From: a virus
Strand: one strand, 5' to 3'
DNA: 29,261 nucleotides
Virus record (IMG/VR): IMGVR_UViG_3300044617_001170
Coordinates: 1 to 29,261 of that record
Shown: piece by piece, positions 7,960 to 25,074 of the stretch
How positions within the stretch are numbered: the stretch's first letter is position 1
How the letters are laid out: every line of letters starts with the position of its first letter
Position numbers and translations under genes: made by a program
The notes under the pieces: generated by a model
The model's input: only the letters and a program-made list of their open reading frames with translations
Database searches by the model: none
What the model was told of the DNA's origin: nothing

Positions 7960-8440
7960 CTGATTTTTTAACCATTTCTATATAATGTATTTTCTTAAAG
8001 ATAAATTCAGCTATCTTTTCAGCATTAGACGCGCTACCGCAAAATATAACTTTAATATTATGATTTAGTTGTAGCTCTAAAATATTCTTAATAAGAAAGG
8101 AAGGAGTAATCTTAACTTTATCCCACATTCTTTTAGGAACAGTACTTCCTTCTGGATATATTAATAGATCTTCGAGATTAAATTCTAATAATAAAAATGA
8201 ATATTTAAATTGGCTCAATCGCATCACAACATCTTTGAATCGACTCTCGACAATGTTAGTTGCAAATTCGCTAGAGCTTTTCTTTCTCTCAATAGTTAAT
8301 ATGTGCTCTAAGCCCTCAATACTATAGTCCCCGGTATCTAACTTTTTATGAGCCTTGGTATAGTCGTTAAAATTCCACGGCTGTTGTTCTCTGGTATCTA
8401 TTATTATGGTAAAGTTATTATAGGTATTATTATTTGTCAT
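7952..8440 (-). CDS. ERCC4-type nuclease
   Basis: This 162-residue protein has the ERCC4/XPF nuclease core: IIDTREQQPW (Asp15, Arg17, Glu18), LDTGDYSI (Asp38) and IERKKSSSEF (Glu51-Arg52-Lys53), matching the family signature GDx(n)ERKx3, with Ser-Glu where Asp is usual at the end. It would cut branched or junction DNA. It overlaps the HNH gene upstream by 11 bases and the terminase downstream by 8 bases, so the three are probably translated together. The context suggests a role in resolving branched replicating DNA before packaging, which is inference. Confidence 0.85.
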   Translation of the reverse strand: MTNNNTYNNFTIIIDTREQQPWNFNDYTKAHKKLDTGDYSIEGLEHILTIERKKSSSEFATNIVESRFKDVVMRLSQFKYSFLLLEFNLEDLLIYPEGSTVPKRMWDKVKITPSFLIKNILELQLNHNIKVIFCGSASNAEKIAEFIFKKIHYIEMVKKSDG

Positions 8441-8705
8441 TTTTTGGCTTCTGCTTTATTATGTTATAAAAAACGGCCTCATAATAAGTTTCTACACCAG
8501 TAATCATTTTATGATGATCTTTACAAAGAGTGATTCCGTTATCTACTTCAAATCGTAGTCCCGGACAATCAGCCCAACGACGAACATGATGAGCATTTAA
8601 TTTTTTCTTGCTAGAACATCCTGGCCACTGACAAGTATGATTGTCTCTTGCATAAATTTTGTTTCTCCATTTTTTATATTCTGGATCATTAAAGTTCCTA
8701 AGCAC
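8430..8705 (-). CDS. HNH endonuclease
   Basis: A small HNH protein with CQWPGC (zinc Cys pair), AHHVRRWADCP and NGITLCKDHHKMI, the canonical HNH core with a second Cys/His ligand set. HNH proteins next to terminase genes often assist DNA packaging, for example HK97 gp74. Start choice: an ATG at 8741 adds MIWLVLILNYTLV, but that stretch is merely another frame of the conserved end of the gmd gene and looks non-coding. A GTG at 8705, overlapping the gmd stop region, is preferred. Neither has a clear ribosome binding site, so the start is uncertain. Confidence 0.8.
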   Translation of the reverse strand: MLRNFNDPEYKKWRNKIYARDNHTCQWPGCSSKKKLNAHHVRRWADCPGLRFEVDNGITLCKDHHKMITGVETYYEAVFYNIIKQKPKNDK

Positions 8706-9696
8706 GAGAGTATAGTTCAATATCAGAACTAACCATATCATGAACTAGTTGTTGAAATGTAATTTTAGGAATCCATTTTAGAACTTTTTTAGCTTTGCTA
8801 CAATCTCCTTTAAGATATTCAACTTCGGCCGGTCTATAAAGAGACGGATCAATTGTCACATAATCTCTATAATCTTTATTAACAAAAGAGAATGACTCTT
8901 GTAAAAATTTTTCAACAGTTTGAGCTTGTCCGGTACTTATAACAAAATCATCAGCTTTATCTCGAACTAGCATTAATCTCATAGCCTCAACATAATCTTT
9001 GGCGTGTCCCCAATCTCTTACCGCATTAATATTTCCAAGTTTGAGTTTTTCGTTATGTTCTAGTTTGTTATTAACTAGTCGCCCTATATATTTGGTTATT
9101 TTTCGCGTAACAAAGTTTTCGCCGCGACGAGGACTTTCATGATTAAATAGTATTCCGCTACAAGCATGTAATTTATAAGCCTCTCGATATATTTGAACCA
9201 TTCGGTGGCTAGCAAGTTTAGCTACAGCATATGGACTTTGAGGCAACAAAACTGTCTCTTCGTTTTGATATTTATTACCATCAGAGTCAACTGAATAATT
9301 TCGCCCAAACATTTCGCTGGTGCTTGCTTGATAAAATCGAGTGGTTGAACTAAATTTTCTAATATTTTCTAGTATGTTAATTACGCCAATAGCATCAATT
9401 TCGAATGTGGTGGTTGGCTGTTTAAAGCTAGTTGCCACATGACTCTGAGCGGCCAGATTATAAAATTCCTTGGGGCGATGCTTGGTTATTATATCTGTGC
9501 AATCACTAGGATCAGTAAGATCAAATTCTTCCAATATTAATCGTGGATGATTAACTATGCTTTTAATACGTTCAAAATTGATTGAACTACTTCGTCGGTA
9601 TAGTCCAACAACTCCGTATCCTTTTTGTAAAAGATTTTCCGCCAGATAACTTCCGTCTTGGCCCGTTATGCCCGTGATAATTGCTGTTTTACTCAT
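8698..9696 (-). CDS. gmd: GDP-mannose 4,6-dehydratase
   Basis: This 332-residue short-chain dehydratase would convert GDP-mannose to GDP-4-keto-6-deoxymannose, precursor of fucose, rhamnose-D and related sugars. Motifs: NAD(P)-binding GITGQDGSY (Gly9, Gly12, Gly15), LAAQSHV, catalytic STSE (residues 125-128) and YAVAK (Tyr156, Lys160), then NHESPRRGENFVTRKIT, all hallmarks of GMD rather than other dehydratases. The ATG at 9696 overlaps the preceding gene's stop by 8 bases; a GTG 12 bases earlier is possible. Placement within a morphogenesis operon is unusual. A role in glycosylating virion proteins or remodelling host surface sugars is inference. Confidence 0.93.
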   Translation of the reverse strand: MSKTAIITGITGQDGSYLAENLLQKGYGVVGLYRRSSSINFERIKSIVNHPRLILEEFDLTDPSDCTDIITKHRPKEFYNLAAQSHVATSFKQPTTTFEIDAIGVINILENIRKFSSTTRFYQASTSEMFGRNYSVDSDGNKYQNEETVLLPQSPYAVAKLASHRMVQIYREAYKLHACSGILFNHESPRRGENFVTRKITKYIGRLVNNKLEHNEKLKLGNINAVRDWGHAKDYVEAMRLMLVRDKADDFVISTGQAQTVEKFLQESFSFVNKDYRDYVTIDPSLYRPAEVEYLKGDCSKAKKVLKWIPKITFQQLVHDMVSSDIELYSRA

Positions 9697-24073: not shown

Positions 24074-24146
24074 GCCGATGTAACTCAGTTGGTAGAGTAG
24101 CAGTTTTGTAAACTGCCTGTCATCAGTTCGACTCTGATCATCGGCT
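24074..24146 (+). tRNA. tRNA-Thr (UGU)
   Basis: Acceptor GCCGATG/CATCGGC, D arm ACTC...GAGT, anticodon stem GCAGT/ACTGC with loop TTTGTAA (TGT), T arm ATCAG-TTCGACT-CTGAT, discriminator T. One base separates it from the next tRNA. Confidence 0.94.
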
Positions 24147-24147
24147 T

Positions 24148-24417
24148 TCGGGAATGGTGTAACGGTAGCACAAGTGACTTTAATAAACTGGAGTGCTTAA
24201 AAGGAAACTTTTAATGTATAATCTCTCAAATTCGGTGGACGCTGTAAAATGCCAATACCGAGCCAAGCCGAGTAATCGGAAGGTGTAACGACTTGACGGG
24301 AGACACCTAAAACACAAGTAAAGGTGAAGGTAAAGTCTAGACCACAAACCAATAGGGTAACGAAAGTTATAGTGGTAAGTGGATCACTTTGTCTAGGTTC
24401 AAATCCTAGTTCCCGAA
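24148..24417 (+). tRNA. tRNA-Gln (UUG) split by a group I intron
   Basis: Exon 1 is 24148-24180 and exon 2 is 24380-24417. Joined, they give acceptor TCGGGAA/TTCCCGA, D arm GTGT...GCAC, anticodon stem AGTGA/TCACT with loop CTTTGGA (anticodon TTG), T arm CTAGG-TTCAAAT-CCTAG and discriminator A. The splice site lies between positions 34 and 35 of the anticodon, exactly where the cyanobacterial tRNA-Leu(UAA) intron sits. The HNH gene on the other strand overlaps the last 12 bases. Confidence 0.93.
24181..24379 (+). ncRNA. Group I intron (IC3-like) in tRNA-Gln
   Basis: This 199-nt self-splicing-type intron ends in G. P1: exon ACTT plus U pairs with GGAGT. P2: TTAAAAG-GAAA-CTTTTAA. P4-like TTCGGT/ACCGA, followed by GCCAAGCCG, P6 CCGA-GTAA-TCGG, then the conserved core AACGACTTGACGGGAG (P7 5' strand GACTT) with AAGTC 3' strand in GGTAAAGTCTAGACC, P8 CACCT/AGGTG and a P9 arm AAC-GAAA-GTT. 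The order and wording follow the Anabaena tRNA-Leu intron closely. No reading frame lies inside. Splicing is inferred. Confidence 0.93.
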
Positions 24418-25074
24418 TTTGTTATAATATTTAATCCATTTTCTTACAGCATTATCACTAACATTATACATTTTACCAATTGTAGTCATAGGATAATCTT
24501 TTACTAAATTATCTAGTTCTTCTTTGGTTGGTCTTTCTACTTTTCTAAGCCAAGGTTTTGGGCCTTGTTTACCTTTTTTAATTTTTGGCGGTTTTTTAAA
24601 TCTTTTACCAGCGTAAGTATCTGTTTGGCTATGACAGTTTGGACATAAAAAACATAAATTTTCTAGTCTATTATCGTTGGGAATACCATTTTTATGTTCA
24701 AGCTGTAATGATATTTTTTTATTATTCCAAGTATCTTTAAGACCACATGATTCACACTCGTATGACATTAAGTCATTTCGTATAATTCTTTTTTTTATAC
24801 TATCTCTATTAAGAGATCCATTTTTACAAAAAAAATCTTCGTTAGTTTTTTTGGGAGGAAATTTTTTCCCTTTATTTGATCCTTTACCAAGAGCAATATG
24901 AGACATATCTATATTTTCATATATAACTCGTCTTTTAATAGTATGATGGTTTCCACCTTTATTATTTAGATTAAAATAACGTAGTATATCAGCTATGGTA
25001 TTAGATTTAGCAACCAGTGCTTTGAATTCATCTGTGGAGATTGACCATATAATGCTTCTTTTTTTTCTATTCAT
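24406..25074 (-). CDS. HNH endonuclease, possible homing nuclease
   Basis: This 222-residue protein has an N-terminal DNA-binding half (WSISTDEFKALVAKSNTIAD, IKRRVIYENIDMSHI) and an HNH core YECESCGLKDTW, LQLEHKNGIPNDNRLENLCFLCPNCHSQTDTYAG with two Cys pairs, then a basic tail with a helix-turn-helix-like end (TTIGKMYNVSDNAVRKWIKYY). This matches free-standing phage HNH endonucleases. It is convergent on the intron-bearing tRNA-Gln, overlapping its 3' end by 12 bases. AAGGA is 8 bases before the ATG. It is the only minus-strand gene in this part and is AT-rich, so probably a recent insertion. Confidence 0.9.
   Translation of the reverse strand: MNRKKRSIIWSISTDEFKALVAKSNTIADILRYFNLNNKGGNHHTIKRRVIYENIDMSHIALGKGSNKGKKFPPKKTNEDFFCKNGSLNRDSIKKRIIRNDLMSYECESCGLKDTWNNKKISLQLEHKNGIPNDNRLENLCFLCPNCHSQTDTYAGKRFKKPPKIKKGKQGPKPWLRKVERPTKEELDNLVKDYPMTTIGKMYNVSDNAVRKWIKYYNKFGN

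Follow-up and report, generated by a model that had tools for sequence, protein, structure and literature searches.

The window, as we call the whole stretch of 29,261 nucleotides that was analysed, is a 29-kb piece of the genome of a tailed phage, with a terminase and a portal identified by PHROGs and with scattered tRNA genes. One of them, a tRNA-Gln(UUG) gene on the plus strand (24148-24417), carries a group I intron inserted between nucleotides 34 and 35. The first exon terminates with ..AGTGACTT, the last base being U34; its acceptor, D and anticodon 5' strands pair with the second exon, and it is identical in a relative of the phage, G046 (see below). The second exon (38 nt) reads TGGATCACT..TTCCCGAA. 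The tRNA reads CAA, the more frequent of the Gln codons in the eleven genes counted (CAA 84 vs CAG 37). The elements of the locus are:

24074 to 24146, plus strand: neighbouring tRNA-Thr(UGU), 98.6% identical to G046, within the patch shared with it
24148 to 24180, plus strand: exon 1 of tRNA-Gln(UUG), nucleotides 1-34, ending in C32 U33 U34
24181 to 24379, plus strand: group I intron of 199 nt with no ORF (Rfam RF00028; comparison of 55 introns)
24380 to 24417, plus strand: exon 2 of tRNA-Gln, U35 G36 G37 A38 .. A73 (ARAGORN on the spliced sequence)
24406 to 25074, minus strand: HNH endonuclease (HNH-A), 222 aa, PHROG 10822 (E-value 4e-48)

The joined exons form a tRNA of 71 nt with all stems paired, recognized by ARAGORN as tRNA-Gln(ttg), i.e. 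the canonical host tRNA is restored when the splice position is placed at 34/35, as the original prediction had proposed. ARAGORN run on the unspliced gene did not list a tRNA-Gln; its intron mode reported a mis-split tRNA-Ser, and the group I boundaries were preferred to it. With these boundaries the intron is preceded by U and its last base is G24379; a splice site after U35 would give it a terminal U instead of G and was discarded for this reason. Interrupted tRNA-Gln genes of the same kind are present on independent contigs (L218/L232, L299, L581, L582 and L583), which excludes an assembly artefact. Archaeal tRNA introns are short, usually lie 3' of the anticodon and exhibit a bulge-helix-bulge motif; an intron of this type was also considered and discarded, the 199-nt group I fold at 34/35 being found instead.

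The Rfam family Intron_gpI (RF00028) matches positions 24171-24355 with 50.4 bits (E-value 3.4e-10 for the whole window), a score barely above the Rfam cut-off of 50, and the search of the whole window revealed no second match. Because the cut-off is exceeded by so little, the group I assignment is based on comparison and not on this threshold. Chance matches to the same model in the uninterrupted portal gene of relatives define a noise level of 18-25 bits, and the weak matches of this size in G004-G007 were discarded as noise. The covariance model thus supports the intron narrowly by the Rfam cut-off, and clearly by the E-value together with the comparative evidence. Both core motifs quoted in the original prediction were located (AACGACTTGACGGGAG at 24287-24302 and AAAGTCTAGACC at 24332-24343). 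The structural alignment, built from 55 distinct introns related to that of the window, revealed the following helices:

24177 to 24194, plus strand: P1, exon bases A31 C32 U33 U34 (24177-24180) with the guide GAGU (24191-24194)
24197-24203/24208-24214, plus strand: P2 hairpin, with compensatory changes at every pair
24222-24227/24298-24303, plus strand: P3, enclosing P4, P5 and P6/P6a, with up to 6 pair types per position in the 55 introns
24232-24237/24256-24261, plus strand: P4, inside P3
24241-24242/24251-24252, plus strand: P5, inside P3
24262-24270/24277-24284, plus strand: P6/P6a, inside P3
24290-24293 (GACU)/24334-24337 (AGUC), plus strand: P7, pseudoknotted with P3, paired in 55 of 55 introns
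24304-24307/24323-24326, plus strand: P8, between the P7 strands, paired in 53-55 of 55 introns
24341-24345/24372-24376, plus strand: P9, with an inner arm at 24357-24361/24366-24370

Helices P2, P3, P4, P5, P6, P8 and P9 are kept throughout the 55 introns with many compensatory pairs (in P2, P3, P6 and P8, and most notably in P2 and P3), in agreement with the P2, core and P9 arm drawn from the single sequence. The predicted U before the intron, the terminal G and the U-G pair of P1 are likewise kept, the wobble at the 5' splice site being U34-G24191. Compared with more distant introns in Gln and Leu tRNAs, 8-12 stem pairs of the window intron are changed on both sides and still paired, with 0-1 broken. 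By every feature that could be tested it is a group I intron in a new host gene, and on these comparisons of sequences we regard the class assignment as nearly certain. One could argue from the Rfam score near the cut-off that the tRNA-Gln is a pseudogene holding the degenerate relic of an intron that no longer splices, but all core helices are intact, both splice-site rules are obeyed, compensatory changes preserve the stems relative to several relatives, and three phages with introns that differ by 8-13% share tRNA-Gln exons of 100% identity. We therefore consider decay extremely improbable.

The guide sequence varies with the insertion site: it is GAGU in introns that follow ..ACUU (U34), GGUC in those that follow ..GACU (U33), and GCAGC in those that follow ..GCUGU (U35). 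In the window intron, the CUG directly 5' of the guide pairs with UGG of exon 2 to form P10. Over 83 introns we counted 164-166 contiguous P10 pairs, compared with a mean of 76 and a maximum of 110 in 5000 shuffles, and 99 pairs after de-duplication (shuffled mean 52, maximum 79), the shuffles leaving some relatedness among the introns in place. Such matching of P10 to different anticodons is the pattern that selection for splicing would leave.

Relatives of the intron were collected by two exact-pattern scans of IMG/VR with pieces of the intron core, followed by a cloverleaf search in which the anticodon loop was completed across the intron; their fit to the splice-site rules reflects the search itself, which required U before the intron and G at its end. 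The scans yielded at least 112 interrupted tRNA genes in viral contigs, at least 85 of them distinct and covering ten anticodons; these counts refer to contigs classified as viral, and IMG/VR may include some bacterial sequence, while the phage origin is secure for the terminase-bearing relatives and the named phages. Among the matches listed, the cut lies after U34 in nearly all Leu(UAA), Gln(UUG), Arg(UCU), Lys(UUU), Glu(UUC), Thr(UGU), Ser(UGA) and UCA tRNAs, after U33 in CAU tRNAs and after U35 in Asn(GUU). Examples from named phages include a tRNA-Leu(UAA) of Agrobacterium phage Atu_ph07 (MF403008.1, 112959-113220) that is absent from the annotation and holds a group I intron of 278 nt, and an Arg(CCU) gene of Microcoleus phage My-WqHQDG, cut after nucleotide 36, for which the annotation shows only a 286-nt tRNA-Arg. 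A related intron identified by blastn in the 735-kb phage LR756501 is 85.5% identical to that of the window and also lies between nucleotides 34 and 35, but it resides in a different tRNA, a tRNA-Leu(UAA) with a long variable arm, in a different phage, and in a record that carries no annotation. The same genome contains a second, stronger group I match (LR756501.1, 718159-718390; 96 bits), where the cloverleaf test placed no tRNA. Introns of the same family apparently also divide a capsid gene into two annotated "capsid protein" CDSs in pelagiphage HTVC120P and in a phage from the deep sea (MH598807, 19653-19799; KT997847, 22130-22203). In plasmids and isolates, matches were confined to the intron core.

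On a quick tree of the introns, in which many forks are weak, isotype labels cluster, still with 30 changes (shuffled mean 52), and on account of these 30 changes the introns have probably moved repeatedly between tRNAs. Bacterial tRNA introns are scattered among the phage introns and interleaved with them; in our bacterial sample, tRNA-Gln was not convincingly encountered as an intron host. The original prediction had likened the intron to the ancient tRNA-Leu(UAA) intron of cyanobacteria and plastids. Of this comparison the insertion at 34/35 stands, while the closest introns found belong to other phage tRNA genes: the neighbours on the tree, which did not include cyanobacterial tRNA-Leu introns, are phage Gln, Leu and Lys introns.

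Searches with the terminase revealed many relatives of the phage, the nearest named phages being less than 30% identical in this protein. Five of the seven relatives larger than 190 kb carry an intron in a tRNA with the anticodon UAA (L209-L213); in each of these five, the interrupted tRNA has a short (5-nt) variable loop, unlike the normal bacterial tRNA-Leu. G046 (230 kb, 79% terminase identity) contains an interrupted UAA tRNA together with the same split tRNA-Gln as the window, with identical exons and an intron 86.6% identical. Empty sites are also present among the relatives: G045 (200 kb) has an intronless tRNA-Gln in a syntenic position, after a tRNA-Thr and the same upstream gene in the same layout, and the tRNA-Gln of G009 (89% terminase identity) is intronless; the intronless gene of relatives is represented by L219/L489 and L475. 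Pattern searches for a tRNA-Gln of the window type detected it without an intron in at least 120 contigs and interrupted in 6, including the window.

The comparison of these genomes revealed a mosaic patch. In the upstream gene, G046 is closer to G045 (87.6%) than to the window (78.8%). At the start of tRNA-Thr the relation changes: the similarity between the window and G046 becomes 85-97%, and that of both to G045 only 66-76%. The patch spans tRNA-Thr, tRNA-Gln, the intron and the HNH gene, with 98.6-100% identity between the window and G046 over the tRNA-Thr and the tRNA-Gln exons. The pattern fits co-conversion around a putative break in tRNA-Gln, although general recombination between tRNA arrays would leave a similar picture. 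Another contig (L501) has nearly the same tRNA-Thr allele, yet its tRNA-Gln is intronless. Between the window and G046 the introns are 87% and the HNH genes 81% identical at the nucleotide level, both lower than the tRNA exons, which indicates that the transfer was not recent; the identity of the exons may in part be due to constraint on the tRNAs.

The HNH-A gene, missed in the original prediction, is convergent with tRNA-Gln; the final codons of HNH-A run 12 bp into the acceptor/T arm of the tRNA. Homologues 69-81% identical to the window protein occur in the same place and orientation at the split tRNA-Gln of G046, L581, L582 and L336. Members found at the Gln site share a conserved C..C / H / N / CPNCH motif and a C-terminal helix-turn-helix tail, which is absent from most homologues at other tRNAs. 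The AlphaFold model (pLDDT 84.6) gave only weak Foldseek matches, to HNH nucleases and helix-turn-helix structures, and a sequence search against the PDB gave no match. A second likely HNH endonuclease ORF, with an LNAHHVRRW..LCKDHH motif, was recognized by eye elsewhere in the window (8430-8741, minus strand).

In phage tRNA arrays, genes for homing endonucleases are frequent in any case. Among the matches listed that have enough downstream sequence (for the interrupted gene, the pattern retrieved five contigs and the window), HNH-A adjoins 4 of 5 interrupted tRNA-Gln genes and 0 of 97 intronless ones, and either HNH family adjoins 1 of the 97 (HNH-B in G045; Fisher p 6e-6), while over all isotypes at the same loci an HNH gene lies within 100 nt on the 3' side of 23 of the 71 interrupted tRNAs listed and of 13 of the 268 uninterrupted ones (odds ratio 9.4, p 3e-9); both tests are weakened by the relatedness of the loci and by HNH profiles seeded from the window locus and G045. 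HNH-B (L219:1611-1955, plus strand) is a different HNH protein of 114 aa that follows the intronless tRNA-Gln of G045. No HNH-A gene was found near the tRNA in L583, an intron-bearing tRNA-Gln with room to look, or in L284.

We propose that the locus harbours a self-splicing intron mobilised by the neighbouring homing endonuclease, an explanation that we hold to be probable as a whole; its homing half, according to which the separate HNH gene spreads the intron, we find somewhat more plausible than not. Splicing activity, the HNH target and homing at the tRNA-Gln locus are what we infer from the sequences. Upon transcription of the tRNA array, P1 would dock U34 on the intron core, guanosine would attack after U34 in the first step, and the freed U34 would then attack after the terminal G while P10 keeps exon 2 aligned, to yield a normal tRNA-Gln. 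The HNH enzyme is predicted to cut intronless tRNA-Gln genes that co-infecting phages bring in, at the anticodon site or close to it, while the intron would shield its own copy of the gene from this cleavage, and repair would copy the tRNA exons, the intron and the endonuclease together. As exon 2 is only 38 nt long, an HNH gene outside the intron lies about as near to the insertion site as one encoded within it. An endonuclease frame within the intron would make the latter about four-fold longer, while the outside placement would keep the ribozyme small and still allow both to be copied in break repair.

The same data may be read differently: the group I intron would be functional, but the HNH protein would be one of the usual free-standing endonucleases, its gene having invaded the tRNA array as in the case of SegB in T4/T6, and intron and tRNA would move by general recombination or reverse splicing. 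HNH genes do occur beside intronless tRNAs (HNH-B in G045 and the 13 controls mentioned above), and homing to a single site offers no explanation for the isotype changes on the tree, for which reverse splicing could account. The linkage of HNH-A to the intron at tRNA-Gln, and the location of HNH genes at about 0-100 nt from the 3' exon in several isotypes, argue against this possibility, which we judge to be rather unlikely but deserving of serious consideration.

A few of the interrupted genes encode suppressor-like tRNAs with the anticodon UCA (L277/L327 and L305/L330), with a group I intron at 34/35. Reading TGA as sense raises the coverage of these contigs by open frames (L277 from 0.50 to 0.80, L327 from 0.41 to 0.70, L305 from 0.62 to 0.88), and a tail-sheath-like frame (L277:5546-7822, minus strand) contains five in-frame TGA codons. 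The maturation of a code-changing tRNA may thus depend on a ribozyme. These tRNAs from contigs that apparently read TGA as sense, and the invariable position of the interruption in the anticodon loop (which the search required), might suggest that the intron benefits the phage, either because it conceals the anticodon from anticodon nucleases of the host until the tRNA is spliced, or because it sets the time at which the tRNA is supplied. However, bacterial tRNA introns occupy the same loop without any such known role, and the great excess of intronless tRNA-Gln genes is as expected for a selfish element, so we regard a benefit of this kind as improbable.

A review from 2014 located all phage group I introns then known in protein genes, despite the many phage tRNA genes (PMC3984707), in agreement with what the original prediction had stated about their usual location. 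Introns of unclassified type, called enigmatic, were reported in 2019 in tRNAs of Lak megaphages (PMC6784885), which share with the window the presence of introns in tRNA genes of a phage; Rfam gave a single group I match in Lak-A1, which by the cloverleaf test does not fall in a tRNA. A survey from 2026 described tRNA introns in recoded jumbo phages (PMC13037316). In the open-access literature we found no description of a group I intron in a tRNA of a phage, or in a tRNA-Gln. The known bacterial tRNA introns (in Leu(UAA), Arg(CCU), initiator Met and Ile2; PMC8450103, PMC3984707) are likewise small group I introns in the anticodon loop, with U before them and G at their end; in the window, however, the host gene is a tRNA-Gln, the host is a phage, and an HNH gene abuts the tRNA. 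The arrangement resembles the collaborative homing described in cyanophage S-PM2 for F-CphI and the psbA intron (PMC6083498), where a free-standing endonuclease also lies beside an intron-bearing gene and the intron should shield the target, but F-CphI has an Endo VII motif, whereas the window enzyme belongs to the HNH family, its target is a tRNA gene and the cleavage is predicted. SegB from the tRNA region of T4/T6 (PMC13096335) is another homing endonuclease encoded in a phage tRNA array, but of the GIY-YIG family and with no intron. What is new is a group I intron with tRNA-Gln as the host gene, combined with an arrangement of the endonuclease that has been described for a protein gene of a phage.

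In a broader perspective, we speculate, with our judgement evenly balanced, that phages carry a large family of ORF-less group I introns, most of them unannotated, which pass from the anticodon loop of one tRNA to that of another via a re-tuned guide and are paired with tRNA-aimed HNH enzymes encoded just outside the 3' exon, forming a modular homing cassette, which in some phages interrupts a UCA suppressor-like tRNA of an apparently altered code. Large phages often have interrupted tRNA genes, which ARAGORN misses, while tRNAscan-SE is, according to its authors, not meant to detect such introns (PMC8450103); tRNA counts, and perhaps suppressor-tRNA calls, are too low for large phages. The cultured jumbo phage Atu_ph07 provides a ready system for testing splicing. 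The finding makes it testable how ORF-less tRNA introns move, and whether the tRNA introns scattered among bacteria have a reservoir in phages.
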